Shown here: positions 13,586-63,374 of the stretch, piece by piece
Numbering within the stretch: the first letter of the stretch is position 1
Layout of the letters: the number at the start of each line of letters is the position of its first letter
Source of the DNA: Turnera subulata
Taxonomy: Eukaryota > Streptophyta > Magnoliopsida > Malpighiales > Passifloraceae
Length of the DNA: 64,000 nucleotides
Assembly: GCA_028386065.3 (NCBI GenBank)
Contig: JAKUCV010000249.1
Location: forward strand, 11,292-75,291
Reading direction: 5' to 3'
The notes under the pieces: generated by a model
The model's database searches: none
Told to the model about the DNA's origin: nothing
Seen by the model: the letters and a program-made list of their open reading frames with translations, nothing else
Program-made: the position numbers and the translations under genes

Positions 13586-13655
13586 TGACCGCCAGGTCCT
13601 GGCGGACATGGGGGCTTGACCGCCAAGTCCTAGCGGACATCCCGAGATGGCCTCC
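13586..13655. promoter_or_regulatory. Phased GACCGCC/GGCGG(T/A)C palindrome ladder in LTR
   Basis: Inverted-repeat units TGACCGCC-N6-GGCGGACA begin at 13586, 13617 and 13647 (steps 31 and 30 bp; third unit decayed). The ladder lies about 125 bp upstream of the LTR TATA box in element orientation. Confidence 0.8.
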
Positions 13656-14271
13656 ACGTCCTCCCAAATTTGTACGTTCTTTCCATTTTCGGCCCCCAAT
13701 TCCCCTAATTCAGCCCCGATTTGTTCCTACCGCGTACTCAATTCCTAATCAACCCTAACTCACTCAATTACTTGATTACTACTCCTCTAAATCATTCCAT
13801 AACTGATTGATTACACATTAGACAACCATTTGAAGCAAAATCATACAAAAAACACATTTACCAATTAAAGGGTGATTTGATTCTGATCTTCCACTAAAAT
13901 CAGAACCAAAATTAGTCTGTAAGTAAAGTGTTCATGGGCTAACTAAACTCTGGAGAATCAATTAACTTGAGCTCTCAAACCCATCCTCAATCCAAAGATA
14001 AATTGTCTCATTAAAATTGGATTAAAGACAGAAGAAAGGCCCAAGTAATGAAATAAACCTTATTATATATTCTATCCTAAGATTAAATCATCTCATTAAT
14101 CCTAGTAGTCCAATATAAAAGGCTTCAATTACTAAAATGCATTGTTTCCAGTAAGATAAATTCTTAACGTCTTTTACTCCTAGGATCAAATCATCTCATT
14201 AACCCTAAGTTCAAACATGTTTAAAACCTAAACTTTGTGGAAAATTCGTGGGTCAAATTTGGGTGTTCACG

Positions 14272-16641: not shown

Positions 16642-16921
16642 ATGGCTGTGAACACCCAAATTTAGCCACCTACTTTTATTCTATTGGTTTTATTATATTT
16701 TAGAGCCCAAGGTTAATTTTATTAATTGTGGACTTTAATTTGCCTTAGAAACCTAATTTTGTGGAAACAAGAGGAATAACAGAGATTCTTAGAGTGTAAT
16801 CTTTGGAATTAAGGAAAAGGAATAGAATCCTCACTTTGCGCACAAAAATCGGAATTAATAGAAAACCCGGACAAAATAGGAATAATATGAACAGTAACCC
16901 GGACCCGGCGGACATCTCACA

Positions 16922-17000
16922 AAAACCGCCAGGCCCGGACGGACATCCTTGGAAGACCGCCATGACACGGCGGTCATGTCGTGATGACCGCCACGCCATG
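16922..17000. promoter_or_regulatory. Palindrome ladder in 5' LTR of the gag-only element
   Basis: Units beginning at 16922, 16953 and 16984 (31-bp steps) with ACCGCC arms answered by GGCGGTCA or decayed arms. Same motif as in the Tat LTRs, here about 480 bp upstream of the TATA box. Confidence 0.75.
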
Positions 17001-17476
17001 TCGTTTAAGTGGTCTTATTTTGGCAACTTTCTTTGCAGCGAGCACAGCCCAATTAATTAACGATTCCGGGAGTTTCAGGGGTCCAATTGACATGAAACCA
17101 GTTGGAGAAAAAAATAGACTCATAGGGTTTCATAGTTATAAATTTCATAATATTTGGCCCAGTAGATTAAGAGCAGTAATTGATTAAATTTGGCCCAGCC
17201 GTGCAGAAATCTAGCACCGACCTAGGCCCACTATTTTTGCGATATCTCGAGCTAAAGAATTCCGATTTAGGATTTCTTTATATGGTCAGAAAGATAGAAG
17301 AATTATATAGAACTTTTAAGAAGGGCCCAAAGTTTGATTTCATCGTATACAAGGTGGAAATTGGCATGCAATTTATGGGTTACAAAACAGGCAAAGCACC
17401 GACTTAGTGAGCAAGTCAAGGATTTTGTTTCCAATCTGATCAAGGAGTCTTAAACCGACCTATGGACGAATTCTAC

Positions 17477-17488
17477 ACTATATATAGG
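17477..17488 (+). promoter_or_regulatory. TATA box of the gag-only element LTR
   Basis: CACTATATATAGG, followed by transcribed-looking sequence. The 3' LTR equivalent (near 23982-23993) reads CACTATACATAGG. Confidence 0.6.
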
Positions 17489-18069
17489 TCCATAGGGTTT
17501 ACAGAGAAGGGGGCTTCAACGTTGAGTAGTGGTAAGGCACTCAATTTATCAAATTTTCTCTCGACACACACCCTAAAGCGCGTTAGCTTGGAGAAACTAT
17601 TTAGATTTGATTTTATTCTTCAATTCCTATTGCTTTTCTCTCTTAGATCTCACATGGTTTTGCTCTAGTTGTGTTTTCTTATTAGTCTTTACAGAGAAGG
17701 AGTTGAATTCAAGGGCTTTAGAGCAATCAAGTGCAATCCCAGGGTCAAGGACGTGAAGAACTTGCGTACAAGCTCTTGCATGGTGCAGTCTCGGTAATTA
17801 GTCATATCTCGAGTTCTAGACCTTGGATTGCTGCGATCTTAGACTATCTGAAAAGATAAGAGGAAGATCTACACTTTTTCTGTTGGGCTTAGAGTCTGAG
17901 TCGATCGTTTGGTGCGCTTAAAATCAGCTTCAAGTCGACTCTAGTTTCTGTCCAGAAACTCAAGGTAAGTGTTCTAAACTCTTTTCGGTTCTAAATCGCC
18001 TTATTTACTGTTGATTCGATGCTATGATGATACTGACATGTTCTCTTGAGTGTTGTTCTAATCTAAGAA

Positions 18070-18106
18070 CTACGTGAGCTTTGAACCCGGTCGCCGGGGT
18101 ACGTAG
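18070..18106 (+). other. R/U5 stem-loop with inner CCCGGTCGCCGGG hairpin
   Basis: CTACGT ... ACGTAG outer arms and an inner CCCGG/CCGGG stem. The complementary strand contains GGTTCAAAGC, which fits the pol III B-box consensus GGTTCRANNC. The copy at 24576-24612 carries one change in the right arm. Confidence 0.7.
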
Positions 18107-18486
18107 GATGTCTCTAGTGGTGGAGACGCAAGCCAAATTATGTTTTAACCTTTTCTCTTCTCTTTTGTTTTTTTAATTCTCTGCTTTGCATGCTGTTTTG
18201 ATGATTTTATGCTGCTGGAAATCTGGTTTAGACACATGCACACATGCACCAAAACACAAGTATTCGCTTAAATTGCACATTATTTCGCCCAAGCATGGAT
18301 GGGATGCCTCATACCTTCCTATCCATGACGAACCCCTGAGTCCGGCATCTTTGCTTCGCTAATCTGGTTGCTTTGCAGGTATAAGGAGCCATTCTTTGTT
18401 TTTTCTTGAGTTTTTCCATGGTAATAAAACTTGGGTGGCGACTCCATCGTTTGTCACGAGGTGAGAAAGTTCCGGGTTCTCACAGC

Positions 18487-18502
18487 TGGCGACTCCACTC
18501 GG
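18487..18502 (+). other. Primer-binding site of the gag-only element
   Basis: TGGCGACTCCACTCGG, two bases after the LTR. Same site as in Tat-like elements I and II (TGGCGACTCCACTGGG and AGCGACTCCACTGGG), the long site typical of the Tat lineage. Confidence 0.75.
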
Positions 18503-18599
18503 ATTCGTGGGTTTAAGAAGTAATGTGCAATTTTTGCTTGAGTTTTGTGTTTTGTTATTTGTCACTTGCATGCTTGCATTCAATATGATTGTGTGTTAA

Positions 18600-18800
18600 A
18601 CCTTTACCTTAAGGGGGCGCGGCGAGTCCTTGCCCATACATACCATCATCCGTGGTGATATGGCATGCGACTTGCCTGTTACCCGCCGCGCGCGATGATA
18701 GGGAACCTTGGCCTTCGACCTCACGCGGCATCCTTATGTCACATGTAAGTAGGCTGAACCTCCCATAGCAGTTGTTTCTTAGCCCCCAACCAACCTGCAT
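18600..18800 (+). other. Conserved 5' leader of the Tat-like elements
   Basis: Non-coding. Shares blocks with the leaders at 26670-26900 and 57785-58010 (reverse orientation): a GGGGGC/GCGGCGAGTCC start, the CACATGTAAGTAGGC block, and TTAGCCCCCAACCAACCTGCATACCC. Its conservation between gag-only and pol-bearing elements suggests an RNA packaging or priming function. 18801-19200 shows only AT-rich sequence before the gag ATG. Confidence 0.6.
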
Positions 18801-19200
18801 ACCCTAGCATATCATGCATTTCAATTCGAATGATGCCGAATTTCGATGATGAATTTTTGATGCTATGCTTTTTGCTTGTGTATGTCTACTTTGCCTTGGG
18901 AATCCATGTTTGCATGCATTAAGCATCATTAACATCATATCACATTGCATGTTTTCAAAATACAAAAATTCGAACCAAAGTAATTTTCTAAAAAAAAAAT
19001 ATTTATTGTTACTTGTTTATTTTCAAAAAAAAACTGGAAATTTCAAAAATAAAAAAATTCCTTTTGCGAGTCTACTCCATAAAATTTTTGTTACATTCTC
19101 CATTATGTTTTCTCAAACACAAAATCAAAACCAAGCTTGCACTTAGAGTTTTCAATTGTCATGAACATGATTATTTTGAAATTACGTTTCCTAGGTCACC

Positions 19201-20317
19201 ATGAGTGGAAACATTGTGCAAACCGAGAAAGCCGACTTGATGAAGGAGTTGATAGCCGAATTGGACGGCGTTGATTTGAGGGCGCTCATTGATAGTGTGA
19301 GAGCAAAGAAGGTCGCATCCAATGAGGAGAACGAGGTACAATCCTCAAGGCAAGGGGCAACAAAAGCCGAATGGAAGAAGCCAATGGTTGAAGACAGGCT
19401 CAACAAGCTTGAGGAAGTGCTCAAGAACATGAAACGGAAAGAAGACGACGACAACCTTGATTGATTGGCTCTTTTCACTGAAGCAAGGCTCCCGAACAAA
19501 TTCAAGATGCCGGACTTTGGTCGGTTCGATGGAACTGGTTGTCCACATGCCCATTTGAAAATATATGTTCTACTCAATGGGAATCGGGCCGGAATTGATG
19601 GCGTAATTGTTTCAACATTCCTTAGGAGGGGTAGCCTTGAAGTGGTTATTGTCCTTGGATGACAATCGAGTGTCCAAATGGGAAGACATTTGCAAGGAGT
19701 TTGTTGACCAAGACAAGTACAACACCGAAGTGGATGTCACCAAGAGAGATTTGGAGACAGCCAAGCAAGGGGCACAAGAGACCTTCTCCTCTTTCATTGC
19801 ACGTTGGCGTGACAAGGCGGCTCTCATGGTTAATCGGCCATCCGAAGAAGATCAAGTACAAATGGTGATTAAAAACTTACAACCGGTTTATTATGATCGC
19901 ATGGTGAGCAACTATTATGCCAACTTTAAGGCTCTCATTGGGGCGGGAATTCAATTGGAAGACGCCATAACATCCGGAAGGGTCAAGGTCGCTAGTCATG
20001 CTCCACCTCAAGGGTATAATGACAACAAGATGATTGAAGTTAACAATGTAGATGCACATGCACCTCGTCGCATCGTCCCACCAAAGAGAGACTTCACTCT
20101 ATTGCCCATGCCCATTGAGGAAGTGTTCAAGAAGTGCACAAAGGATGGATTGTTGACGCCTCTAGAGCCGAAACCATATGCTAACCTCACGGTTGATCAA
20201 AGCAAATATTGTGAGTATCATCAAACTCAAGGACATACGGTGGACAACTGTGGAAGCTTACGCCATAAGATTCAAGACTTGATTGACGAGAGGTTGATCA
20301 TTATGCCGAAGCACTAA
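19201..20317 (+). pseudogene. Gag of the gag-only element (one stop, one frameshift)
   Basis: Starts MSGNIVQTEKADLMKEL. Residues 1-87 are charged and helical and end at TGA 19462. The same frame continues with LPNKFKMPDFGRFDGTG, the start of the capsid domain. A frame change near 19600-19610 leads to the main capsid part (GGVALKWLLSLDDNRVSKWEDICKEF; VDVTKRDLETAKQG; NYYANFKALIGAGIQLEDAI), which is open to 20317. Near the end is a zinc-finger-like CEYHQTQGHTVDNC (C-H-H-C), then an ending in HKIQDLIDERL. With two lesions over about 370 residues it is only mildly decayed. The unusual knuckle is shared by Tat/Ogre-type gag. Confidence 0.85.
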
Positions 20318-22380
20318 AATCGGTGGAAGTATCAAGGGTCATGTCTTAGAGAGAGTTGAATTTGAGCTATCACCTTTTAGAGTCCGAAATTCAATAAAGT
20401 AGTGATTTAATCATGTTAGACGCACTTTATTTTCAAGCATTTGAATAAACGTATTCTTTGATCTTTCCAAGAATAATAGAATTCTCATTCCCTCATTTAT
20501 GTGTGCATACATATGTTTTTGACAAACTTCATGAAAGTCCATTGGCCCAACCCGGAAACCTTTTCCAACGAACTATGGAGACCTGATCCTGTGAATATAA
20601 TCCCTACCTATCTGAATACTTGTCCAAATCACTCGGCCAATTCAAGTGTTTGTCTAACCTATCCCTTCACGAATATTAGTCTCGGCAACCAATGACTACA
20701 TCACACTTAATTCCAAGGTCACTTACCTCGAAAAAAAAAAAAAAACGACAACAAATTCAAAAATTCAAAAAAAAAAAGAAGAAAGAAAAAAAACAAAAAA
20801 ACGAGGGAGTGACCTCCAAATCTCAACTCATGTAGCCGGACTTGATTGACGAGACAAACTTCCGACCACCACAAGCCTTAGAAAAAGGACAAGTATTCAT
20901 TCCTAAATACCATTCCACCAAATACTTGCCACATTTAATTCAGACCAAAGACCCGTCACTTTTAGTCTCCCAGACACCATCAACACTTCAAACCAAACAC
21001 CTCCCACCCTATATTCATGGGTACATAGGTAACCCGGCAACAGGCCCGGTCTAATCGGTTCTTAGGTTGGTTCAATGGACTAGATTGGAGTTTGTTCTTG
21101 CTTCTCAAGATTAAATATGCCACGAGGGTATTCAAATGCTAATTTTTCGGACTCTATCCCTCAACATCGACAAAGTATCATTACTCTCCTCATAGGACTC
21201 ATATCCCGACGAATATTGATCTACCCTACAGTTCTAAATTATTGGTTGGCATACTTCCTTATCGGACTCTCAACGATCTATTGATCATTCATCGGCATGG
21301 CTCATTTTTCTCTTAACCATTGGCTTCAATAATCATGGATGTTATCCATTCGCCTCTCGAGCACAGTTTTTCCTCCCCAAGGTTGTTATCGATCTCTCGT
21401 CCGCCTCTTCAGTGGTCTCTCACGCATATCCCTTGGTTTCCTCAAGCTCATCATGATTGTATTCCTCCAAAGGCCTCGTGGTTTCTACTCCTTCGAAAAT
21501 AAAGTAGAAAAAAAAATTAGAAAAAAAGGAAGGTCCGCTAGGGTGAAAACCCAAATGGGTGGCCTAGGCAAAAGTTAGGACACGCCTGCTAGATTGAAAA
21601 CCCGAAAGGGTGGTCTAGGCAAAAGTTAAGGCAAGATTAAAAAATGGGACGGTAGCCACTAGCCATAAGGGAGTACCCATATCTCCGAACCTCATCCACT
21701 CTCAAGAAGACCTCGCGCCTCCGGCCCTGTTGTTTCGCAAGATGATCCTTCATTCACTTAGGTGTTTTTTTTAATCAACCACTCATGGGGTTCTTATTGA
21801 GAGGAAATCGTTCATGGCCATTGAGAATCCTTCACGTGAAGCTTTTGTATTTTTGATGGAGTAGCTTGCCCTTTTTTCTTAAACTGCTTTGGCTTATTTG
21901 TTTTCAAATTCTCATGACATTCATACATCATGCTAGGGGCATTCTCATACACTTTGTAAATCAAGATTATTGACGCATTCTAAGCACTAGGGGCATCCCC
22001 TTCGCATTAACATTCATCACAAAGATTTGGGGCATCCCTTTTGCATTCGTATGCACCAAGAAGATAGACGCATAATCAAAAATTAAAATAGGGGCATTCT
22101 CTTTTGCATTCTCATGCCTCAATAGGAGCGTCCTCATGCATCGTTTAGAAACTAGGGGCATCGCCATGCACTGAAATAAATCATACAGCATTGTAGAGAC
22201 ATGCTCATGCATCCACTTAGGCTTAGAACATGTTCTTCGCAAGATAAACTTGGTTGATATAAACAATAGCCTCTAGGGCTCATCATCATCTCTAAAAATT
22301 AAATTTAACTCTGAATACTTGCACAATAGATTAAGGGTGTTCCCCCACGAGTTTTATCATTTAGCTTCTTAGCTCTGAAA
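20318..22380 (+). other. 3' UTR of the gag-only element
   Basis: Non-coding. A-rich runs at 20725-20810, then 21010-21770 shared (inverted) with element I 15380-15990, then 21930-22270 with repeated AGGGGCAT(C/T) and TGCATTC(T/G)CATGC hairpin-like words. Confidence 0.6.
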
Positions 22381-22384
22381 TTCT

Positions 22385-22960
22385 TATTCATCACTCAATC
22401 ACTAGATTATATCCTCTAGGTCATTCCTTCTGAAACTTAGTCGCTTAGACTATATCCTCTTAGGATAGGCCCTCTAGGTCATCCTTTTTTTGTCACTTAG
22501 ACTATATCCTCTTAGGATAGACCCTCTAGGTCCTCCCTTTTAGTCCCATAGACTATATCTTCTTAGGATAGGCCCTCCAGGTCCTCCTTTTTCTTGTCAC
22601 TTAGACTATATTCTCTTAGGATAGGCCCTCTAGGTCCTCCCTTTCAGTCCCTTAGACTATATCTTCTTAGGAAAGGCCCTTTAGGTCCTCCTTTTTTTGT
22701 CACTTAGACTATATCCTCTTAGGATAGACCCTCTAGGTCCTCCCTTTTAGTCCCTTAGACTATATCCTCTTAGGATAGGCCCTCTAGGTCCTCCCTTTTA
22801 GTCGCTTAGACTATATCCCCTTAGGATAGACTCGCTTGTTCTTCCCTTTTAGTCGCTTAGGCTATACACTTTCCTTTCAGTCGCTAAGGCTACACCCTCT
22901 AGGTTACATTTTCATAGTCACTAAGGCTACATCCTCTAAGCAACATTTTCTAGTCTCTTC
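22385..22960 (+). repeat. About 52-bp tandem array made of three small hairpins per unit
   Basis: Units read AGTCNCTTAGACT, TATCCTCTTAGGATA and GACCCTCTAGGTC in series, eight or so copies from about 22430 to 22880, with degenerate flanks to 22960. Each piece is a 4-5 bp stem around a CTTA/TCTTA/CTCTA loop. Located in the 3' UTR, a known source of satellites in Tat/Ogre elements. Confidence 0.8.
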
Positions 22961-23140
22961 ATTTAGTCACTAGGCTACACCTTCATAAAACTTCATCATC
23001 CCTCTCCATTGGAAACACCTCAAGTAAGCATCGTCAAGCTTCTTGGTATCACAATCAAGAGCACGCCCACGTGTATTGTTTCTTCTCTAAATTTGTGTAT
23101 TCTATTGCCTTCTTTCGTGCCTAAATTCTTAGACCCTCAT

Positions 23141-23154
23141 CAACAAGGGGCATC
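23141..23154 (+). other. Polypurine tract of the gag-only element
   Basis: CAACAAGGGGCATC immediately precedes the 3' LTR. The complement GATGCCCCTCG follows the 3' LTRs of Tat-like elements I, II and III, so all use the same tract. Confidence 0.75.
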
Positions 23155-24981
23155 TGTGAACACCCAAATTTAGCCACCTACTTTTATTCTAATGGTTTTA
23201 TTGTATTTTAGAGCCCAAGGTTAATTTTATTAATTGTTGGACTTTAATTTGCCTTAGAAACCTAATTTTGTGGAAACAAGATGAATAATAGAGATTCTTA
23301 GAGTGTAAGCTTTGGAATTAAGGAAAAGGAATATAATCCTGACTTTGCGCACAAAAATCGGAATCCATAGAAAACCGGACAAAATAGGAATAATGTGAAC
23401 AGTAACCCAGACCCGGCGGACCTCTCACAACAACCGCCAGGCCCGGGCGGACATCCTTGGAAGACCGCCATGACACGGCGGTCATGTCGTGATGACCGCC
23501 ACGCCATGTCGGTTAAGTGGTCCTATTTTGGAAACTTTCTCTGCAGCGAGCACAGCCCACTTAATTAACGATTCCGGGAGCTTCAGGGGTCCAATCGACA
23601 TGAAACCAGTTGGAGACAAAAATAGACTCGTATTTCATAGTTATAAATTTCATAATTTTTGGCCCAGTAGATTAAGAGCAGTAATTGATTAAATTTGGCC
23701 CAGCCGTGCAGAAATCTAGCACCGACCTAGGCCCACTATTTATGCGATATCTCGAGCTAAAGAATTCCGATTTAGTATTTCTTTATATGGTCAGAAAGCT
23801 AGAAGCATTTTCTAGAACTTTGAAGAAGGGCTCAGAGTTTGATTTTGTCGTCTACAAGGTGGAAATTGGCGTGCAGTTTACGGGTTACAAAACAGGGAAA
23901 GTACTGACTTAGTGAGCAAGTCAAGGATTTTGTTTCCAATTTGATCTAGGAGTCTTAAACCGACCTATGGACGAATTTTACACTATACATAGGTCCCTAG
24001 GGTTTATAGAGAAGGGGGCTGCAACGTTGAGTAGTGGTAAAGCACTCAATTTATCGATTTTTCTCTCGACACACACCCTAAAGCGCGTTAGCTTGGAGAA
24101 ACTCTTTAGATTTGATTTTATTCTTCAATTCCTATTGCTTTTCTCTCTTAGATGTCACATGGTTTTGCTCTAGTTGTGTTTTCTTATTAGTCTTTACAGA
24201 GAAGAAGTCGAATTCAAGGGCTTTAGAGCAATCAATCGCAATCCCGGGGTGAAGGAAGTGAAGAACTTGCGTACAAGCTCTTGCAGCGCGCAGTCTCGGT
24301 AATTAATGATATCTCGAGTTTTAGTCCTCAGATTGCTGCACTCTTGGACCCTCTAGAAAGCTAAGAGGAATATCTACAACTTTGGTGTTGGGTTTAGAGG
24401 CTGAATTGATCATTTGGTGCGCTTAAAATCAGCTTCAAGTGGACACTAGTGTCTGTCCAGAAACTCAAGGTAAGTGTTCTAAACTCTTTTCGATTCTAAA
24501 TCGCCTTATTTACTGTTGATTCGATGCTACGATGATACTGACATGTTCTCTTGAGTGTTGATTCTAATCTAAGAACTACGTGAGCTTTGAACCCGGTCGC
24601 CGGGGTACCTAGGATGTCTCTAGTGGTGGAGACGCAAGCCAAATTATGTTTTAAACTTTTCTCTTCTCTTTTGTTCTTTTAATTCTCTGCTTTGCATGCT
24701 GTTTTGATGATTATATGCTGCTGGAATTCTGGTTTACACACATGCACCAAAACACATGTATTCGCTTAAATTGCATACTATTTCGCCCAAGCATGAATGG
24801 GGTGCCTCATACCTTCCTATCCATGACGAACCCCGAGTCCGACATCTTTGGTTCGCTAATCTGGTTGCTTTGCGGGTATAAGGTGTCATTCTTTGGTTTT
24901 TCCTGAGTTTTTTCACGGTAATAAAACTTGGGTGGCGAATCCATCAATTGTCACGAGGTGAGAAAGTTCCGGGTTCTCACA
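23155..24981 (+). mobile_element. 3' LTR of the gag-only element
   Basis: 1827 bp, same ends and internal landmarks as the 5' LTR; ladder units at 23431, 23462 and 23493 (31-bp steps). Followed by the target duplication ATGGC. Confidence 0.9.
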
Positions 24982-24986
24982 ATGGC

Positions 24987-26985: not shown

Positions 26986-26987
26986 AC

Positions 26988-27949
26988 TGTGAATACCCGA
27001 CCCAAAAGCACTTGGGCCTATTCACCTAATCCTTTCACCTTCTTCTTCGGGTCAATCCCATAATCTTGGAGTCGCCACCCGAGTTTTATTAAGGACAAAA
27101 CTTGGGAAAAAATCAGAGTTTCTCCAAGCACACAATGCTTATAGGTGTGTATGTAAGAAAAGTGTCCTTTGAAATGTGTGTGAGGGGTCTTATTTATTGT
27201 GCTCTGGGAAGCCTAGGGGCGTGGACCTACTTAATGGTGAAGAATATGCCCAAAAATCTGGTTCAAAACCGCGTATAATCGAATTAGGAATGAAAATCGG
27301 CAAAATCGGAGATTCTGGGCACTGATGACCGCCAGGTCCTCCCGAGTTTGTGCGTTCTTTTCATTTTTGGCCCCCAATCCCCCTAATTCAGCCTCGATTT
27401 GATCCTACCGCATAATCAATCCCTAATCAACCCCGACTCACTCGATTACTTGATTACTACTCCTCTAAATCATTCCATAACTGATTGATTACACATTAGA
27501 CACCCATTTTAAGCAAAATCATACCAAAAACACATTTACCAATTAAAGGGTGATTTGATTCTGATTTTCCACGAAAATCAGAACCAAAATTAGTCTGCAA
27601 GTAAAGTGTTTATGGGCTAACTAAACTCTGGAGAATCCATTAACTTGGGCTCTCAAACCCATCCTTAATCCAAAGATAAATCGTCTCATTAAAATTGGAT
27701 TAAAGATAGATAAAAGGCCTAAGTAATGAAATAAACCTTATTATATATTCTATCATAAGATTAAATCATCTCATTAATCCTAGTAGTCCAATATAAAAGG
27801 CTCCAACTACTAAAATGCATTGTTTCCACTAAGAAAAATTCTTAACATGTTTTACTCCTAGGATCAAATCATCTCATTAACCCTAAGTTCAAACATGTTT
27901 AAAACCTAAACTTTGTGGAAAATTCGTGGGTCAAATTTGGGTGTTCATA
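26988..27949 (-). mobile_element. Tat-like 5' LTR of element I, internally deleted
   Basis: Starts (plus) TGTGAATACCCGACCC and ends GGGTGTTCATA. Only 962 bp against about 1555 bp in its partner: the R/U5 part with the stem-loop (between about 27112 and the start of the TCAGAGTTTCTCC block) is gone, and the palindrome ladder is reduced to one unit near 27325. Confidence 0.82.
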
Positions 27950-45599: not shown

Positions 45600-45782
45600 G
45601 TGGACCAATGGTTGGAGCATCACATGCTCCACCTCGAGAATCATCTCATCCCGAGGTTTGTGATTGACTCATCTCATCTCTTAGGATTTTCCTGGTCCCA
45701 AGAGCTACCAGGAATCTTCTCATCCCGGGGTTTCTTTTGGGATTTTCCTGGTCCCTAAAGTGATTAACAAAGGATCATCTCA
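45600..45782. repeat. Hairpin-type repeats at the start of the element II 3' UTR
   Basis: CCTCGAGAATCATCTCATCCCGAGG (45632-45656) has the same AATCATCTCAT loop and paired arms as the array at 63494-64000. CCAGGAATCTTCTCATCCCGG follows. Confidence 0.6.
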
Positions 45783-46725
45783 CCTATGCCAACTAAGGAT
45801 ATTATAACCCTCCCGTGGGGATTTTGCTAACTAAGGATATTATCACCCTCCCGTGGGGATTTCGTTAACAAGGATCACCTCACCTGTGTTAACTAGGGAT
45901 ATTGTTGCCCTCCCGTGAGCATTTTGCCAACTCAGGATATTATCACCCTCCCGTGGAAATTTTGCTAACTAAGGATATTATCACCCTCCCGTGGAGATTT
46001 TGCTAACTAAGGATATTATCACCCTCCCATGGTGATTTTGCCAACTAAGGATATTATCACCCTCCCGTAGGGATTTTGCTAACTAAGGATAATATCACCC
46101 TCCCGTGGGGATTTTGCTAACTAAGGATATTATCACCCTACCGTGGGGATTTTGCCAACTAAGGATATTATCACCCTCCCGTGGGAATTTTGCGAACTAA
46201 GGATATTATCACCCTCCCGTGGGGATTTTGCTAACTAAGGATATTATCACCCTCCCGTGGGGATTTCGTCAACAAGGATCTTTTCTCCTGTGTTAACTAG
46301 GGATATTGTCGCCCTCCCGTGAGGATTTTGCCAACTAAGGATATTATCACCCTCCCGTGGGGATTTTGCCAACTAAGGATAATATTACCCTCCCGTGGGG
46401 ATTTTGCCAACTAAGGATATTATCACCCTCCCGTGGGGATTTTGCCAACTAAGGATATTATCACCATCCCGTGGGGATTTTGCCAACTAAGGATATTATC
46501 ACCCTCCCGTGGGGATTTTGCTAAATAAGGATATTGTCACCCTCCTGTGGGGATTTTGCCAACTAAGGATATTATCACCCTCCCGTGGGGATTTTGCTAA
46601 CTAAGGATATTATCACCCTCCAGTGGGGATTTTGCTAACTAAGGATATTATCACCCTCCCGTGGGGATTTCGTTAACAAGGATCATCTCACCTGTGTTAA
46701 CTAGGGATATTGTCGCCCTCCCGTG
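45783..46725. repeat. 38-bp tandem array with higher-order units
   Basis: About 24 copies of a 38-bp unit of the type AACTAAGGATATTATCACCC plus TCCCGTGGGGATTTTGCC. A variant block (TTCGTTAACAAGGATCACCT, then GTGTTAACTAGGGATATTGT) recurs near 45865, 46265 and 46670, which marks a higher-order period of about 400 bp. In a Tat 3' UTR. Confidence 0.9.
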
Positions 46726-47060
46726 AGGTTCTCATCTCATCTCGGGGGTCTTGGCATTTTCCTGGTCCCAAGAGCTAATGGGAATCATCCCGTGGTTCAT
46801 CTACATCGTCACGGTGCTCCTTTATATCGGGACAACGTCCCTGGGATATCTATCCCGCAACATCTTCGTCCACTCTTCTTTAGGGGTATCTGCCCCTAAC
46901 GACTCTCATCAATTCTACTTCTATCTTAGGGCCATCTGCCCCTAGCTACTCTCAACGGTTCTACTTTCATCTTAGGGGCACCTGCCCCTGGTCTCGGCTG
47001 GTCTAGATCGAGCATGTTCGCGGACCCTTCGGATCCTCCCTCATTCAAAGCAATCGTCCA
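46726..47060. other. Hairpin-rich 3' UTR segment
   Basis: GGGACAACGTCCC, GGGATATCTATCCC, TTAGGGGTATCTGCCCCTAA (46881-46900) and two relatives TTAGGGCCATCTGCCCCTAG and TTAGGGGCACCTGCCCCTGG. No coding sequence. Confidence 0.65.
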
Positions 47061-47299
47061 AAGAATAGGCTCATCACGTTTTCAAAAGACTCATCATTCT
47101 AAATCAAAATACACGTCTAACACTTATCATTGTAAATTCAAGTAAAAGATCATAAAATGCCCCTCAAGTGATAAATACACATGTTTTCCTCGCCTCCTTT
47201 TCATATCCCTTTTTTTCCTTCCTCTCTCAATTTTGTGGAATTTTCTCAAAAAAAATTTTTCTGGGCGAATAGTGCCTACCGGGCGGCCGTGAGGAGGGA

Positions 47300-47392
47300 T
47301 GACTGCCACTTTCTGGCGGTCTTATATGGATGACCGCCAAGTGTGGTGGTCTTCTCGTCATGACCGCCCGCGCTGGCGGTCATAGCTCCCGG
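47300..47392. promoter_or_regulatory. Palindrome ladder upstream of the antisense PMD gene
   Basis: TGACTGCC-N7-GGCGGTC, TGACCGCC-N6-GGTGGTC and TGACCGCC-N6-GGCGGTCA begin at 47300, 47331 and 47361. The last unit ends about 90 bp before the TATA box at 47472. This is internal to the element, not in an LTR. Confidence 0.8.
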
Positions 47393-47471: not shown

Positions 47472-47481
47472 TTATAAATAA
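47472..47481 (+). promoter_or_regulatory. TATA box of the antisense PMD gene
   Basis: TTATAAATAA, 68 bp before the ATG at 47549. Oriented plus, opposite to the element. Confidence 0.6.
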
Positions 47482-48501
47482 AACTTTAGGTACCCAGAAT
47501 TCTCACAACTTGTCAAGCCAACCGGACTTTGTGCCTATTCGTGCTGCTATGTTCTGGGATCGTGACCATCACGTGTTCCGCTTTGGCCCTTCCATGGCAG
47601 AACTCTGTCCCAAGGTAGATGAATTCAGCGCGCTTTTGGAGGTTCAAATAGGGGAAGATATTGCCATGATCTCCCCTACCACAGTAGCTGAGCTGGAGGT
47701 TAGTTCTTTTCTGTCTCTTGACGGTAACCAATTGAAATTCTTGCTGGGCAAGGGGGAATTCATGAACTTATCTTCCATAATTGATCAATACTTTGTTAGT
47801 ACTGTATCACGCGGATATCTAGAATGCAGCCTTTCCTGGAGAAGCAGACATGACCATGCCCTAGCTTTGGTGATGGTAAGTGAATTCTTGTTAGTCACCC
47901 GTTCTGGCGCGTGCCCCCTCGGTGTTGGCGCTTTGGTGGCTATGCTCTTTAATGGCTGTAACATGGTGCCTTCTATTTTGGGCGAGACTCTTATTTGCTT
48001 GGATGCTCTGGCATCTTATCCTGGCAAGCCCTTGACTGGTTCTCCCCTCCTTCTCCAGGTATCATCCTCGATTTATTTGACATGTGAAATCGCGTTTACT
48101 CTCCCTCGCTTCTGTACGTAACTCGTGAACTCGTTTTTTTTTTTTCAGATGTGGTTATACGACCATCTCCAATTGATCGTCCCTCCAAAGTCTGGCTAGT
48201 ATACCCCTATGGACTATCATGAGTGAAACCTCATCATAGTTGTTTCTTCTACCAAAGATTGGGTGCTTTTTATGAAGGATATGGCTGACAACCAAATCTT
48301 GTGGTGTTGCCATTAGTTCCACATGCAAGAAGTCATCTTCCGCTTGCCCGGTCAGAAGGTGGTGGTCCTCCCAGGGGTTTATCGTTCTACCCAATATTAT
48401 TCGGCTAGGATAGCTAGACAGTTTGGCCGTGCTCAATTCACTCCTCCGCCTTCATGCTCGCCCCTCGACATGTTAATGGACAACCGTACCATAAAGCTCA
48501 T

Positions 48502-49341
48502 TGAAACACCCGTGTCCCAATTTAACAATAAAATCTCAAAACTTAAGGAAATTACCAAAATGCCCTTGAAACCCGGGACACGAAAATCAATATCAAAAAC
48601 ATTATCCAAAATCCTCAATAAAAAGAGATGTCATAACAACATAGTCAACCGGCTTAGCAAGCCTCAAATCAAACCCGGCATCCTGCCGAACATCATCAAT
48701 AGTAAATCCCGGCAATCAGCCGATAAAATAATCCAAAATCAAAAGTGACATCTCAATATAAATCCAATGCAGCGGAAAAGTCAAACGGAGTAAAAGTAAT
48801 AGAAATAAAACAACACGCATGCCGACCCTATGGATCCAATCCGGGAGAACAAGCACGACTACCTGCTGGGATGTCACGTCCGTACTCCGGGAAAAGAAGA
48901 AAGTGACTGCACGCTATCTAAAGTCTGAAAAAAACAACGTTGGCGATTATGTGAGTCGCCTACTCAGTGAGCAGTATATATCTAATTATGAGAGTGTGCA
49001 GATCAGGTCCGAAAGGAAAGCAGAGTAACAAGTCATGCATGCAAACATACAACAATCAGTACTAACATGCCAACACAATCAAGCATACAGTTTATTGTTC
49101 TTCATCTGTTGTGTTATAAGTTTTTCTTATTACTTTTTATTGTTCAGGGCCCCTACTGTGTGCGTCGAGCTCGGTCCCGTCTCATGAGACAACCAGGCAT
49201 AAGCCCAAATAAAAACCAGGCACGAAGCCCAACATATCCATAGAGAGAGAGAGAGAGAGACAGAGAGAAAGAGGGAGGTAGAAAGGGGGAGGTAGAAGGA
49301 GGGAGGTAGAAACCGGTCATCACAGACCCACATGCAAATCT
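48502..49341 (-). repeat. 3' LTR end of the Tekay-like element (840 bp, duplicate of 49962-50801)
   Basis: Aligns end to end with 49962-50801 with four substitutions. Contains the (GA)n tract at 49240-49270 and CCCGGGACACG. Open frames in it are repeat translations present identically in both copies. Confidence 0.9.
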
Positions 49342-49342
49342 N

Positions 49343-49827
49343 GGCTTAGGTAAGTTAGCCACAAGATCCTGCCACCATGACAGAGCATACCCAGTGAACT
49401 TGTGTGCAGCTAATCGGGCCCTCTGCTCAGGTGCACAGGTGAACTTCTCCAGAACATTCTCCACCTGGCGAAACCAATCATCAAACTCCTTAATATTACC
49501 CCCTTCACCTTTGAATTCCTTCACAGCAGACTTATCCATATATTTGTACCCACTCTCCATACCACCTGTTGCAGCAGGCGCCACCGGCTGGCCACCCTGC
49601 TGCTGCTGCTGAAACTGCTGGAACTGCTGCCACTGCAGAAAAGCCTGATACTGCTGGAACGCTGGGTTTACAACTGGTGGTACAGCATTTTGTCCTCCAC
49701 CACCTGGAGCATTATTCTCTGGTGCATTATTGTTTCCCTGACCATCGGGAATCTGCATCACCGACACATTGTCGGAGACATGAGTACCGGCGTCATCCTC
49801 AGCATTGTGCTGTCCCTCGTGATCCAT
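49343..49827 (-). pseudogene. Tekay-like gag, N-terminal 161 residues
   Basis: Begins MDHEGQHNAEDDAGTHV, Asn/Gly and Gln-rich (QFQQFQQQQQGG), then the capsid start SAVKEFKGEGGNIKEFDDWF, RQVENVLEKFTC and HKFTGYALSWWQDL, typical of chromovirus gag. It stops at the single N. No lesion is seen in the part present. Confidence 0.8.
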
Positions 49828-49942
49828 ATCGACGCCTATATGAATGCAAATGAGTCAAAAACACTTTCAAGTCATAAATCCGGAAACAGTATTAAACACG
49901 GAAAACACTTTGAAAACAAAGTTTTAAAACCAAGGATCTGAA

Positions 49943-49960
49943 GCCCGCTCCGCTACCAAG
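49943..49960 (-). other. Primer-binding site of the Tekay-like element
   Basis: The minus strand reads CTTGGTAGCGGAGCGGGC next to the LTR end GTTTCA; a tRNA-Met-type site with the same TAGCGG variant as the copia element. Confidence 0.65.
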
Positions 49961-49961
49961 C

Positions 49962-52870
49962 TGAAACACCCGTGTCCCAATTTAACAATAAAATCTCAAA
50001 ACTTAAGGAAATTACCAAAATGCCCTTGAAACCCGGGACACGAAAATCAATATCAAAAACATTATCCAAAATCCTCAATAAAAAGAGATGTCATAACAAC
50101 ATAGTCAACCGGCTTAGCAAGCCTCAAATCAAACCCGGCATCCTGCCGAACATCATCAATAGTAAATCCCGGCAATCAGCCGATAAATTAATCCAAAATC
50201 AAAAGTGACATCTCAATATAAATCCAATGCAGCGGGAAAGTCAAACGGAGTAAAAGTAATAGAAATAAAACAACACGCATGCCGACCCTATGGATCCAAT
50301 CCGGGAGAACAAGCACGACTACCTGCTGGGATGTCACGTCCGTACTCCGAGAAAAGAAGAAAGTGACTGCACGCTATCTAAAGTCTGAAAAAAACAACGT
50401 TGGCGATTATGTGAGTCGCCTACTCAGTGAGCAGTATATATCTAATTATGAGAGTGTGCAGATCAGGTCCGAAAGGAAAGCAGAGTAACAAGTCATGCAT
50501 GCAAACATACAACAATCAGTACTAACATGCCAACACAATCAAGCATACAGTTTATTGTTCTTCATCTGTTGTGTTATAAGTTTTTCTTATTACTTTTTAT
50601 TGTTCAGGGCCCCTACTGTGTGCGTCGAGCTCGGTCCCGTCTCATGAGACAACCAGGCATAAGCCCAAATAAAAATCAGGCACGAAGCCCAACATATCCA
50701 TAGAGAGAGAGAGAGAGAGACAGAGAGAAAGAGGGAGGTAGAAAGGGGGAGGTAGAAGGAGGGAGGTAGAAACCGGTCATCACAGACCCACATGCAAATC
50801 TGCATAACACTTGCCAATCTGCAAGCAAACCCGAGGGGTATCACTTCCCGCTCGAAACAACCGGTCATCAGCACACAGTAGCCTAACTTCTACTGTACAT
50901 TATCTTTATTCACAGATTAAGAGTTTATGTGTGCCATTAGCTGTGATCTAACAGGGTAGTGTGATAAAGACATCTCAATCAAATAACCGGGTCTCCGACC
51001 CACAACACATCACACAAGCACCCAAAATCACAACACATGTTATAATCCATAACAAATCCAACATCCTGTTCATAAGCACATAATACACTTAGGCACACAA
51101 TACAGATTACAGCATGTTAGCAAACAAGCATGCAACTCAAACAAACCATTCCAACGAGCTCATGCAAACAAACATAAAAAGACAAATAAAGTCACCTCAA
51201 CGACGATTGTCCTGCGGAGCCTTTCCCAAAACCGATCCACCAGCTCCCGAGGTAACACCCGTGCCTGAATACCGGCACACACAACAAATTACAAACATAA
51301 ACAACAAAGACGTGCATGCATGCAACTATATGCTCCACTGAGTTAAACCCGTCCCCGGTTAGTCGACTATGTAATTCCCGGGTCTAAACCCGACTTAATG
51401 TTCTCNNNNNNNNNNNNNNNNNNNNNNNNNNNNNNNNNNNNNNNNNNNNNNNNNNNNNNNNNNNNNNNNNNNNNNNNNNNNNNNNNNNNNNNNNNNNNNN
51501 NNNNNNNNNNNNNNNNNNNNNNNNNNNNNNNNNNNNNNNNNNNNNNNNNNNNNNNNNNNNNNNNNNNNNNNNNNNNNNNNNNNNNNNNNNNNNNNNNNNN
51601 NNNNNNNNNNNNNNNNNNNNNNNNNNNNNNNNNNNNNNNNNNNNNNNNNNNNNNNNNNNNNNNNNNNNNNNNNNNNNNNNNNNNNNNNNNNNNNNNNNNN
51701 NNNNNNNNNNNNNNNNNNNNNNNNNNNNNNNNNNNNNNNNNNNNNNNNNNNNNNNNNNNNNNNNNNNNNNNNNNNNNNNNNNNNNNNNNNNNNNNNNNNN
51801 NNNNNNNNNNNNNNNNNNNNNNNNNNNNNNNNNNNNNNNNNNNNNNNNNNNNNNNNNNNNNNNNNNNNNNNNNNNNNNNNNNNNNNNNNNNNNNNNNNNN
51901 NNNNNNNNNNNNNNNNNNNNNNNNNNNNNNNNNNNNNNNNNNNNNNNNNNNNNNNNNNNNNNNNNNNNNNNNNNNNNNNNNNNNNNNNNNNNNNNNNNNN
52001 NNNNNNNNNNNNNNNAACACAACCCGACACCACACCAATCACCACCGCCACAACATCAACCCGCAACGGCCAACACAACCACAGCCCACAACAACACAAA
52101 CACACAAACGAAACCCATCAGCATAACAGAACCCCAAAAGAACGGGAACGAAAAAGAAGAGGGGCGGCGCTTACCGGTAATCGACGGACACGGCGGCGGC
52201 GCAGGCGGTCTCGGGCTCGTCCTCAGCTGTCTTCCTCGCCCCCGTTCGTCCTCGGCGGCGTGAAGCAGAAGAGGAGGAGATGAGAGGAAGCGATGGCGGC
52301 GGTTTTCTTGTGGGTTCGTGAGAGAGGAAAGGAAGGTGAGGAAGATGGGGTGTAGGTGACGACGGGAGGAAAAGGGGAAGAGTGAAGTGAGGAGAAAGAG
52401 AAGAGGAAGAGAGGGCGAGAAGAAAAAGAAGAGAAGGGAGAAGAAGAGGAGATGAGGGCGGCGGCTAGGTAGAGAAAAGAAGGAAGAAAAAAGAAAAGAG
52501 AAGGAGAAGAGAAGAGGGGAGGGCCGGCTAGGGTTTTGACCCACCAAGCCCCAAAACGACGTAGTTTCGTTTAGCTTGGTGCGGTCAACCCCCTGGTCAA
52601 CGCGCTCAAGTGTTTTTTTTTTTTTTTAAAACACTGCCAAAACGACGTAGTTTCGGGGAAACTACTTCAAAACTTAACTCTCAACCCCGAAACCCGATTA
52701 AACTCCAACGAAAGCCGAACGCGTCATACCATCAACTTAATTCCCTTATAACCAAGGTAAAATAATTTATTTCCTTGTCCAAAAATCCGGAAATTCCTCA
52801 AGGGTAAAATTGGAATAAAAATTCCGAAAATTCCGAGAAAAATCAAATTACGAAAATTCGGGGCGTTACA
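49962..52870 (-). mobile_element. Tekay-like 5' LTR (about 2.9 kb including 610 N)
   Basis: Plus-strand ends TGAAACACCCG ... GGGGCGTTACA. Holds the (GA)n tract near 50703, the N run, a 250-bp purine-rich tract 52260-52530 (pyrimidine-rich in element orientation), and two AAAACGACGTAGTTTCG copies at about 52553 and 52636. Confidence 0.85.
51406..52015. other. Assembly gap (610 N)
   Basis: Run of N inside the Tekay-like LTR; reading frames across it are meaningless. Confidence 0.99.
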
Positions 52871-53184
52871 CTCATGCACGGATATTGGAGTCCGCCCATA
52901 AGAGTTAAAGTTCTCAATCCGAAGGCCCCCTATTCTTCCGAGGGATATCAACAATGGTTGAAGAAATACATGGGTTATTCTGAATGGATCCTCTTAGGTT
53001 ACAGGAATCGATTTTTAGTATCAATTGTTCGCTTAGAACCCGAATCTCCTAGCGACAATGAAGAGGAAGCTTAAGCATACTGGATGTTTTGCTAGGATAA
53101 ATTTTATGATATGTGTAATGCATGCAAAATAAATGTGTGAATGAACTCCCTTTTTCTTTCTTGTCCACCTTTAAACTCTTATTA

Positions 53185-54765: not shown

Positions 54766-54768
54766 ATA

Positions 54769-58116: not shown

Positions 58117-58117
58117 T

Positions 58118-59688
58118 TGTGAATAACCGACCCAAAATCACTTGGGCCTATTCACCCTTCCTTTACACCTTCTTCATAACCATCATCCAACATCTTTGGA
58201 GTCGCCACGCAAATTTTATTAAGGGACAAAAACTTGGGAAAAACCCTTCATGTGACTCCATTTAGGCAACTGGATAACGAGCCAAAGATGTTGGACCTGG
58301 GGATTCGACATGGACGGGAAGGTGTTAGGCACCCATCCATGTTGGGGCGAAACTTTGTGCAATTAGAGGATTTTGTATGCCTTGTGCAAGTGTGCAAGTG
58401 TGAGCACCAAAACACATAATAACTGAATATTAAAAAGAAAGGGGAGAAGAAGAAGATTGGGCTTGAGTTTCCACCACTAGAAACTACCTACGAACCCCGG
58501 CGACCGGGTTCAAAGCCCACGTAGTTCTTGACATTGCATCACAACAGTCACATCATCTTCAACATCAACATCTCAACAATAATTAGTCAGACAAAAAGGG
58601 ATTAGGATTACCTCTTGTAGCCCTCCTCTAGCTCCTTAGTTTGGGTTGTGCCTCCCACACAATTTCCTCCCACTCCTCATCTCAATTTTGGAGTTCTTCT
58701 TGATTTTTCCCTTTGCTGCCTTCAATGGATGATGCTACCCACGAATTTCTGCCAAAGTTTTGCCTATGGAACTATTTCTTAAGCTTGGAGAGATAGAGTT
58801 TCTCGAAGCTTCAAAGCTTTATGAAGAGTGTTTGTGTAATAGAATCTCCCTTCAAATGTGAGAGGGGGGTCCTATTTATAGTGTTCTGGGTAGTCTAGGG
58901 GCGTGGACCAACTTAATGATCAAGGTAATGGCCAAAAATCTGGGCAAAAACCGAGTAGAATCAGATTACGGGCGAAATTCAGGGTCTGGGTGTGCATGAC
59001 CGCCATGGCTGGCGGTCATCCTATGGATGACAGCCAGGCCGGGCGGTCATGGGTGGAAGACCGTCCAGGCCCAGCGGTCATCCTGAGATGACCGCCCGCA
59101 CCTACGCATCTCACCCGTTCTTTCCTTTTTCGGTCTCGATTTTCCCCTAATTCCTCCCTGATTAATCCTACCGCGTAATTAACCCCTAGACTGCCCAGAT
59201 TCCTCTGCTTTCTTGATTACTACTCCTCTCAATCATCTTCAAATTGACTAATTACACATTGATTCCTCATTTTAAGCCAAAATCATACCAAAAACATTCT
59301 TGCTATTAAGGAATGATTTAACTCTGACTTTCCACGAAAATCAGAGCTAAATTTGTCTGCAAGCAAGGTGTTAATGGGTTGTGCAACACTAAAGAAAAGT
59401 CCATACCTTATTAAATTGGACCCTTACATTTATCTTCAACCCAGGAATAAATATAATTGGGTTTAATAAATAAACAAGCCCAAATTTAATGAGATAAAAT
59501 ACAATTTAGCAATTTAGTCCTTAACATATCCTATGATTAAATCGTCTCATTAATCCTAGGCATATAAAAGTCTTAATTACTATAACGTATAAATTCTACT
59601 AAAATTAAACCTCATCAATCTTATGATTCAAATATGTCTGGAGTCTAATCCCAATATAATTTTCGTGGGTCAAATTCGGGTGTTCACA
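58118..59688 (-). mobile_element. Tat-like 5' LTR of element II
   Basis: 1571 bp. Stem-loop 58488-58524, TATA near 58872-58884, ladder units at 58997, 59028, 59058 and 59089 (31, 30, 31 bp). Differs from the 3' LTR at scattered sites and short indels (for example 30 bp missing near 58975). Confidence 0.9.
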
Positions 59689-59693
59689 ATAGC

Positions 59694-60607: not shown

Positions 60608-61786
60608 TGTTTGCCCAAAAAGGCTAAGAAGGGTGTTGAATTAGTTTTTCCTCTTTTTCAGATTTTCTGAAGATTTGGCTCATCACTTAAGCCAAATGTG
60701 AAACTAAATAGAAATGCAATAATGAGGGTAGAAAAGTAAAAGACACGGGCAATTTATAGTGCTTTCCCACGCAGGAGTACATCCACTACCTAATGGTCCT
60801 CCTTTAGGATTTCTAACTATCCACTAGCTTGGCTTTTGCAGCCGAGCCAAATAACCTATGGTACATAGGTTTTTTCAGGCTTAACTTGCCAAACCTAACC
60901 CAAAGCTGAACCTAGCTTTGTCTGCCCAACAAGATTAACCCCTAATCCTGCTGATTACAACCTCTCAATGATCAAAGCTTCAAGAGTGACTCATTCAAGA
61001 AGTTACACAAATTCGCACAAAGATTCTCTTATAAGGTATGCTCTTTTTCACAACTTAGAATCTCTTGAATGGCTAGGTTAAATTGTTGTGAAGCTTCAAT
61101 CTTCTATTTATAAATTCTAAGGATAGGGAGGAGTGTTCTCCAACGGCTAGATAGCTCCTAGGTGGTGCACAAGTTGACTTCTTTCTTCAATTAAGAACTG
61201 TCAATGTTTGGCTGTTGGCTGAACCAAAACTGGTAATTACTTGGGCATAAATTGTTTATTAATCTTCAAAAAGTATCCCCAAAAATGGAAGTGAGGGCCA
61301 CCAGATCTTCAAGGCATGAAAGAGGATGTGAGGACCACTTTTTTGAACTTTTTCTGACCCTTGGTGACCAAGTAAATCCGTTACTTTAGTTGCTTTAAAG
61401 ACAACTACTTTACCACAACTCCAACTACCCAAACAGTGACCGTTTGGTCTGATAGAAAAGCCACGATGAAGCCAAATCTTCATGGTATTTGGTTTCTGCG
61501 AGAAACCAAATTTTTTCTGCAAATGCTTAAAACACACAAGGACTTTCCACAATTTTTGTTGATGATGACAAACATGTTGTCTATTTTGCCAACAAAACAA
61601 TGATTAGACAAAAAATAACAGAATAAGCATGCTCCCCCAATTTTAAAGCATAATTTGAAAAAAAAATTTGACGCATTCATTTGGCTCAATTTTTGAGACA
61701 AATGCTCCCCCTACGTATATGCACCGTATACTAAAAATTGGTAAAAGCTTTTTTTTAATAGCTCCCCCTGCATAAAAGCACAGTAT
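60608..61786 (-). mobile_element. PF20167-type element, 3' region and LTR part, reverse orientation
   Basis: 61530-61786 matches 38780-39140 in reverse complement: the CAACATGTTTGTCATCATC block, the ATACG(C/T)AGGGGGAGCATTTG block and GAAAGTCCTTGTGTG. A deletion relative to that copy removes the polypurine tract and LTR start. 60608-61500 is LTR-like, with GGCTAAGAAGGGTGTTGAATTAG near its end and TGTTTGCCC at the border. Contains three GCTCCCCC tracts (61630, 61703, 61762). No coding sequence. Confidence 0.6.
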
Positions 61787-63374
61787 TGTGAATACCCGAC
61801 CAAAAATCACTTTAGCCTATTCACCTAATCCTTTCACCTTCTTCCTCGGGTCAATCCCAAGACATTGGTGTCGCCACCCAATTTTATTAAGGACAAAACA
61901 TGGGAAAAACCTTCATGTGACTCCTTTAGGCTACATAGTCATGGCGAACCAAAGTCATGGGATCGGGGGTTCGTCACAGATGGGAAGGTGTTAGGCACCC
62001 ATCCTTGTTGGGTCGAGACTATGTGCAATTACAAAATGCAAGTGTGCCTGGTGCAAGAGTGCAACTGTGGAAAATAAAAGAATGGGGGAGAAGAAAGAGA
62101 TTTGGCTTGCATCCCGTTGTAAAACTGAGACTACCTATGTACCCGAGTGACAGGGGTCAAAGCCACGTAGTTCTAAACATGGCACAAATTGGCCACTTAC
62201 ATCATCAAAAGCATATAATCAATCAAAAGAAGGTTTAGTGTTACCTCTTGTAGCCCTCCTCGAGCTCCTTGCAATGGGTTGAGTTCTACACCCACCTTCT
62301 TTCCACTTCTAAGCTCAATGGTTGATCCTCTTTGACTCTTCCTTGTTGGACTACTGTTGATGCCTCCCACGAAATTCTTCCAGAGTTTCTGCCTAAGAAT
62401 GTATCTATAGACTTGGAGAGGTAGAGTTTTCTCCATGTACTCAAGGCTTACGGGTGTATGTGTGAGAAAGATTCTGTATCCCCCTGAAATGTGTGTTAGG
62501 AGTTCTATTTATAGTGCTCTGGGAAGCCTAGGGGCGTAGACCTGCTTAATGGTGAAGATTATTACCTAAACTCTAGTCTAAAACCGCGTAGGATCGAATT
62601 AGAAATAAAATCGAAGAAAATCGGGGGTACTGGGCACCTATGACCGCCACTGCCGCCAGTCATGCTTTGGATGACCACTAGTACCATCGGTCATGTGAGG
62701 AGGACCACCAGGTGCTGGCGGTCGTCGCGAAAGGACTGTCGGTCACCCCGTGTGTCACTCGTTCTTTCCTTTTTTTGACCCCCAATCCCACTAATTCAGC
62801 TCTAACTTGATTCTACCGCGTAATTAACCCCTAATTAACCCAAAATCACTCAATTACTTGATCCCTACTCCCCTAAATCATTCCAAGATTGATTAATTAC
62901 ACAATATACCCATTTTAGGAAAAATCATACCAAAAACACAAAAATCTACTTAAATGATAATTTAATTCTGATTTTTCACGAAAATCAGAGCTAAAATTAG
63001 CCTGCAAGAAATGTGTTATTGGGCTGGATAAACTCTAGAGAATTAACTTGGACCCTTAAACCCATTTCTAACCCAAAAATAAATCATCTCAATATAATTG
63101 GGTTAAAAACAACTGAAAGAGCCGAAGCAAAGAAATGGAATGCATTTTAATGTAAATAAACCTTATTATATCTTTTACCCTAAGAATAAATCATCTCATT
63201 AATCCTAAGGTTTAAGTGCACAAAGGTTTAGATTTTAAAAATACATTAATTCTACTAAATTAAATTCTTATCATGCCTTAACTCAAAATCAAATCATCTC
63301 ATTAACCTCAAGTTTGGGCATGTTTGGAATCTACTTTAAGTAAAATGTTCGTGGGTAAAATTTGGGTGTTCACA
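61787..63374 (-). mobile_element. Tat-like 3' LTR of element III
   Basis: TGTGAATACCCGACC ... GGGTGTTCACA, 1588 bp. Stem-loop 62135-62170, TATA near 62504-62516, ladder units at 62641, 62672, 62702 and 62733 (31, 30, 31 bp). Confidence 0.87.

Follow-up and report, generated by a model that had tools for sequence, protein, structure and literature searches.

A half-site lattice upstream of LTR and antisense-gene promoters in Ty3/gypsy elements of Turnera subulata: a putative shared cis-regulatory module

The long terminal repeat (LTR) retrotransposons described here lie in a 64,000-nucleotide stretch of Turnera subulata DNA (assembly GCA_028386065.3, contig JAKUCV010000249.1, positions 11,292 to 75,291 of the forward strand; this whole stretch, numbered from its first letter, is called the window below), which is plant DNA rich in Ty3/gypsy elements and part of a 518.7 Mb assembly. 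A ladder of short inverted units stands upstream of TATA boxes in LTRs of these elements and, in one of them, again upstream of a gene that lies antisense between pol and the 3' LTR. Judging from its sequence and distribution, the ladder is probably a conserved multi-site cis-regulatory module, putatively protein-binding, that is common to sense and antisense promoters. A previous sequence-only reading of the window had listed eight such arrays, and a relaxed scan together with direct reading found every one of them where it had been placed; the same reading's observation that they precede TATA boxes and are common to LTR and antisense-gene promoters was borne out, and the arrangement recurs in other elements of the genome.

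Half-site arrays at LTR and antisense-gene promoters

The ladder is best described as a chain of alternating half-sites, R (GGCGGTCA) and F (TGACCGCC), mostly 14–18 bp apart, in which like-oriented half-sites recur every 30–31 bp (230 of 275 like-oriented steps are 30 or 31 bp, in a search that itself restricts spacings); followed in the direction of the TATA box, the chain has R-F-R-F-R-F-R as its fullest common form. It occurs in three promoter classes, namely B-type LTRs, A-type LTRs (treated as a separate class, since in a gapped alignment of nine LTRs the A- and B-type arrays fell at different places) and the antisense gene. The modal spacings are 16, 15, 16, 14, 17, 14 in B-type LTRs, 16, 15, 16, 15, 16, 15 in A-type LTRs and 18, 15, 16, 14, 16, 14 in antisense-gene promoters. 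The full seven-site form is present in 27 of 48, 4 of 4 and 5 of 10 arrays of these classes, respectively, and has exactly the modal spacing in 19 of 48, 3 of 4 and 3 of 10. Because the spacing within a palindrome (14–15 bp) is close to the spacing across the linker (mostly 16–18 bp), two kinds of dyad alternate along the chain, the palindrome being one of them. The chain often starts with an unpaired half-site. In the lattice scan, each of the fourth units previously placed at 43116, 44902, 59089 and 62733 is read as a single half-site and not as a palindrome. Across 121 units, A3 and C4 of TGACCGCC and G1, G5 and G2 of GGCGGTCA change least, and the first T and the last A are the most variable.

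Element B of the window carries the array at both kinds of promoter (44810 and 47282). It lies on the minus strand, with its 5' LTR at 58118–59688 and its 3' LTR at 43919–45511 (termini TGTGAA...TTCACA, target-site duplication ATAGC); the lattice scan places minus-strand lattices at 58997–59096 in the former and 44810–44909 in the latter, and inside the element a plus-strand lattice of the form R-F-R-F-R-F-R, spaced 18, 15, 16, 14, 16, 14, occupies 47282–47382 at the antisense-gene promoter. Further B-type LTRs lie at 12.7–14.3, 27.1–27.9, 39.2–39.9, 42.1–43.8 and 61.8–63.4 kb, which brings the B-type LTRs in the window to seven, all read on the minus strand. Lattices were found in these at 13586–13655 (shortened), at 43024–43123 (in an LTR in which no intact TATA box was found) and at 62623–62740 (in the LTR at 61787–63374). 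Two degraded arrays had been left out of the earlier list: a damaged lattice at 39186–39247 on the minus strand, in an LTR fragment, whose starts at 39186 and 39209 give a 23-bp step, and a remnant at 27324–27346 (end approximate, minus strand) with one recognisable half-site, in an LTR that has lost nearly its whole array relative to its ~94% identical relative at 13.4–14.3 kb. Element A, on the plus strand (LTRs 16647–18484 and 23155–24981, duplication ATGGC), has A-type lattices at 16907–17007 in its 5' LTR and 23415–23515 in its 3' LTR; the unit starts previously given as 16922, 16953 and 16984 are better read as 16923, 16954 and 16985.

The scan for half-site chains found nine arrays in the window and none when the motif letters were reversed. 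Exact TGACCGCC-N5-7-GGCGGTCA units number two in the window and none in 100 shuffles, and units with at least 12 of 16 arm matches number 30, against 2–7 in ten block shuffles. Genome-wide the exact palindrome occurs 1807 times and its reversed-letter control not at all; a chance origin of the arrays is ruled out by these shuffles and reversed-motif controls in window and genome. Fifty palindrome places were sampled, picked by one exact unit and by list position (L003 and L004, which duplicate parts of L044, were left out of counts), and 49 of them are LTR-like sequence or lie by an antisense gene; the unclassified one, L023, still precedes a TATA box. Antisense genes follow the array at 9 of the 50, and loci L025, L032, L042, L043 and L044 have both LTR and antisense arrays.

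Two samples were taken without regard to the palindrome. In the 18 kb beside the window (L045 and L046), an antisense gene to the right of the window (matches from L045:1424), which presumably belongs to the element with the LTR at 61.8–63.4 kb, has a lattice just upstream (L045:1238–1326), followed by an altered box that still resembles TATA. The lattice scan found another LTR lattice at L045:6350–6466 and none in L046. The second sample used LTR sequence next to the ladder as query (1788 first-look candidates, 40 scored, 30 fetched). All 30 fetched copies, the window copy included, have at least three chained half-sites and 21 have at least seven, 19 of these with modal spacing; the other two are L076, whose spacing is altered, and the expanded L074 described below. 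The copies sampled in this way are close relatives only (93–100% identical).

The position of the array relative to the TATA box is regular within classes. Of 48 B-type arrays, 36 have the box 135–140 bp away, measured from the proximal unit's centre; in four others it is at 128, 166, 166 and 237 bp, and in the remaining eight no box was found in the stretch examined. Antisense-gene arrays have it at 86–100 bp in 8 of 10 cases, and the A-type loci L002 and L007 at 165 bp. Within the window, four of the seven B-type LTRs have a box (TATAAATA, minus strand), at lower coordinates than the array: 13451–13458 in the LTR at 13.4–14.3 kb, 44674–44681 and 58873–58880 in the 3' and 5' LTRs of element B, and 62506–62513 in the LTR at 61787–63374. 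The same box stands on the plus strand at 47473–47480 in the antisense-gene promoter. The sequence-only reading had given a usual distance of 90–130 bp; in the window's four B-type LTRs with a box it is 128–140 bp, counted from the proximal unit's centre. In the plus-strand LTR pair at 16.9 and 23.4 kb, TATAAAT occurs ~130 bp past the array in a context unlike that of the other TATA boxes, and a candidate box in the same context as the others occurs ~470 bp past it (CACTATATATAGG, and CACTATACATAGG in the second copy).

Spacing among distant and close copies

The sequence-only reading had claimed that the arms mutate and the step hardly does, and the claim fared differently at different depths. 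Among antisense-gene promoters, where divergence is great, step conservation holds up better. Across ten copies of the antisense gene, dS could be estimated for 36 of 45 pairs (the other nine were left out); dN/dS in these is 0.11–0.59, and 33 of them have a dS of 0.87 or more. The gene has therefore been under purifying selection while its silent sites came near saturation. In five disjoint pairs of their promoters (L044/L032, L042/L043, L039/L025, L019/L036 and window/L029) we counted two one-base spacing differences over 365 bp of lattice, a count weakened by the selection of the pairs after their spacings had been seen and by leaving whole-unit losses uncounted. The ratio of indels to substitutions in three LTR pairs of the window, 13 per 252, predicts 18.8 such changes at dS 1 (P 1.3e-6), and half that ratio predicts 9.4 (P 0.0045). 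Half-sites in these promoters are 0.93–0.94 identical and the bases between them 0.53–0.65, a difference inflated by the way sites are found.

The comparison between classes points the same way. Full lattices of the antisense and LTR classes differ on average by 1.1 bp in length, while their 120-bp downstream flanks align with a mean score of 17.1 against 15.0 for shuffled sequence, 12% of the sampled antisense–LTR flank pairs exceeding the 99th percentile of the shuffles. As far as the sequence can tell, the lattice and its spacing are retained where neighbouring sequence hardly aligns between the classes. We rejected capture of a whole LTR promoter as the source of the antisense promoter, the downstream flank being near shuffled level; a common origin is thus conceivable for the array alone, and a slight residual similarity of the flanks may remain.

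Among related LTR copies the claim, taken as a sign of selection, is not supported. In an alignment of 45 B-type copies (L037:208 was too short and was left out), indels of 1–3 bp in the ladder number 8 where 14.7 are expected from the rest of the alignment (Poisson p 0.045), and base composition may account for part of this deficit. Losses of roughly one unit are frequent. Among the larger ladder indels, those shared by several copies are losses of 31 and 34 bp, and those found in single copies vary widely in size, some being out of phase by about half a turn (5, 16 and 26 bp). Gains and losses of one base are shared as well, and co-occur in two copies. In closer relatives (the two element-B LTRs of the window and 29 of the 30 copies fetched), small indels per 100 bp are 2.0 in the ladder, 4.7 upstream, 8.3 around the TATA box and 0.8 downstream, the last value being lowered since the search query matched that part. 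Strong constraint on the step among related LTR copies was not seen in these diversity, indel and half-site comparisons, and was rejected.

Several points weigh against a module kept by selection. Ladder diversity in the 45 copies (0.279) equals that of the surroundings (0.26–0.32), and in the close copies half-sites vary more (0.120) than the bases between them (0.087; upstream, 0.179). The step among related LTR copies largely reflects shared ancestry, and the sequence-only reading's own caveat, that the step might merely go back to one ancestral sequence, largely applies there. The chain search admits certain spacings only, and large changes appear in it as broken chains, which favours regularity; half-site identity between classes (0.77) is inflated, the sites having been found by motif similarity. 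The dyads, with spacers of 6 and 7 and linkers of 8–10, are also looser than many dimer sites.

One rival explanation is a neutral tandem repeat, in which an old duplication of ~31 bp in one ancestral promoter was copied along with the elements without selection, its regular step being due to shared descent and to whole units having been gained or lost. The parity of array and surroundings, the frequency of near-unit deletions, the absence of half-site conservation among close copies, and an LTR lattice that has expanded in register to 19 half-sites (L074, 1812–2095) all agree with it. It has difficulty, however, with the deep comparisons above: antisense promoters near silent saturation that have changed so little in spacing, their more uniform half-sites, and an array standing before two kinds of promoter whose flanks can hardly be aligned. 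We consider neutral descent unlikely.

The antisense gene and the putative binder

Mirrored arm positions show no covariation in 121 of 172 units, the 51 chosen by exact match having been excluded (odds ratio 1.31, p 0.23), and double changes are compensated in 10 of 30 cases, about the chance level. Since the array is conserved before the TATA box at two promoters and covariation is absent, its units are best read as protein-binding sites. On that reading the lattice would usually offer up to seven alternating half-sites to a DNA-binding protein that recognises specific sequence and probably oligomerises. One lattice would stand upstream of the LTR (U3) TATA box and a second upstream of the antisense-gene promoter; a single protein assembly bound at both places would couple sense transcription to expression of the antisense protein. 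Binding, cooperativity and co-regulation are all inferred from sequence. The three helical turns per step proposed earlier are approximate, a 31-30-31 series averaging 30.67 bp or 2.9 turns at 10.5 bp per turn. Steps of 30–31 bp are 2.86–2.95 turns, with a drift of ~17–51 degrees per step, and like-oriented sites would thus, as a matter of arithmetic and not of phasing evidence, stay near one DNA face.

The antisense gene of element B sits between integrase and the 3' LTR, as in Retand, and integrase-side frames run opposite to the antisense gene in L044 and L043 as well. On the plus strand its first exon-like part occupies 47537–48142 (DUF7745/plant-mobile-domain-like by its relatives), its second part 48149–48502 (found by tblastn with the second exon of L039), and the continuation of the latter past an interruption 52865–53071. 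The interruption, 48502–52865 in the window copy, starts exactly with the first of two 840-bp direct repeats (48502–49341 and 49962–50801, 99.5% identical, with one N between them at 49342), which may reflect either a nested insertion or an overlap that the assembly left unmerged; a run of 610 N at 51406–52015 is an assembly gap within the same interrupted gene. The window's own frame matched no Pfam domain in the family search. Of seven frames from better-preserved copies, six matched DUF7745 (PF24924), all below the curated cut-off, and two matched the plant mobile domain (PF10536; E 5.3e-5 and 0.0017, also below cut-off), the best E among all of these matches being 1.3e-5; the protein thus weakly resembles DUF7745/plant-mobile-domain proteins. 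No DNA-binding domain was recognised in the seven frames by Pfam search, and no relative of solved structure was found by sequence.

A binder would, in our view, more likely come from the host than from the element. It is conceivable, though we would not favour it, that the plant-mobile-domain-like product of the antisense gene occupies the lattice both before its own gene and in the LTRs, either by itself or together with a host protein; if so, the element would carry a self-regulating switch between genomic RNA and antisense regulator, with the half-site lattice as common operator.

A host repressor or silencing protein might instead occupy the lattice, which would then mark recognition by the host and not a need of the element. 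The direction of an effect is not readable from sequence, and MAIN and MAIL1, related proteins with a plant mobile domain, are reported to have a role in silencing (PMC5418596); a purely harmful site would nevertheless be expected to be lost, and this one is kept before two promoters, which makes the silencing explanation improbable. That the inverted repeats are kept as hairpins in DNA or in element RNA, whose genomic form contains both the 3' U3 and the antisense-promoter region, is very improbable given the lack of covariation and the unpaired half-site with which the chain often opens.

Neighbouring features and related systems

Element B has the Ty3/gypsy domain order, reverse transcriptase (RT) and RNase H (56279–55011) preceding integrase (54768–53935) on the coding minus strand, after an open frame at 57629–56280 that is gag by position and has no Pfam match. 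RNase H-like motifs were seen by eye in broken frames at 54.2–55.3 kb; no Pfam match for an additional RNase H (aRH), which in Ogre and Retand of the Tat lineage stands between RNase H and integrase, was obtained in the frames searched. Between its antisense-gene lattice and its 3' LTR lie 38-bp tandem repeats (45764–46736), and a second tandem array, of period 122 bp, starts at 63563 and adjoins the LTR at 61.8–63.4 kb. Element A (16647–24981) has a single internal frame of at least 200 residues, which matches gag, and is possibly non-autonomous, with the lattice retained in both LTRs. A Ty1/copia element on the minus strand at 3444–7585 (gag, integrase and RT domains) is unrelated to the arrays.

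The closest known systems are the Tat-lineage elements Ogre, Retand and Grande, in which pol and the 3' LTR are likewise separated by an antisense gene. Plant mobile domains are known in gypsy elements (PMC6317226, PMC5418596) and occur in many Ogre elements (PMC6317226), and gene23 of Grande has its own upstream promoter and a nuclear product (PMC7264820). Vicient reports TRP28/Transposase_28 for 97% of the Retand clusters that were active recently (PMC11963269). The frames here differ in being weakly DUF7745/plant-mobile-domain-like and not TRP28/Transposase_28-like; TRP28 (PF04195) was absent from all seven antisense frames at E up to 1, and for that reason we do not file the element as Retand. 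The available parts of the Tat-lineage descriptions (PMC7264820, PMC6317226, PMC11963269) mention no array common to LTR and antisense promoters. Neither do the titles and abstract openings that we searched, a search with subscription literature outside its scope, and a prior description is possible.

Two other systems offer partial parallels. The BII boxes of Tnt1 are tandem repeats of ~31 bp in U3, and to our knowledge Tnt1 has no antisense gene and no second promoter with the same array. Tnt1 is Ty1/copia and the lattice elements are Ty3/gypsy, but both have repeated boxes upstream of the TATA box in the promoter LTR. Binding is known for Tnt1, whose BII boxes in the LTR promoter bind defence-induced DNA-binding factors (PMC3316501), and is predicted from sequence for the lattice. 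In foamy viruses, by comparison, one DNA-binding protein, Tas, acts at both the LTR and an internal promoter, and the lattice elements would resemble them if a single protein controlled their two promoters. Tas is a proven transactivator and the viral internal promoter is in sense, whereas the internal promoter here is antisense and its binder putative; the likeness would be one of analogy and not of membership.

The function of Tat-type antisense genes is described as unknown, with a regulatory role only proposed (PMC11963269, PMC7264820). The sharing of one array by LTR and antisense promoters may be a new feature on a known kind of element, and it offers a promoter module, defined by its sequence, that recurs well over a thousand times in a single plant genome. 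The shared array would also serve as a defined DNA probe for whatever binds both promoters, and for whether the antisense protein is among the things that do.
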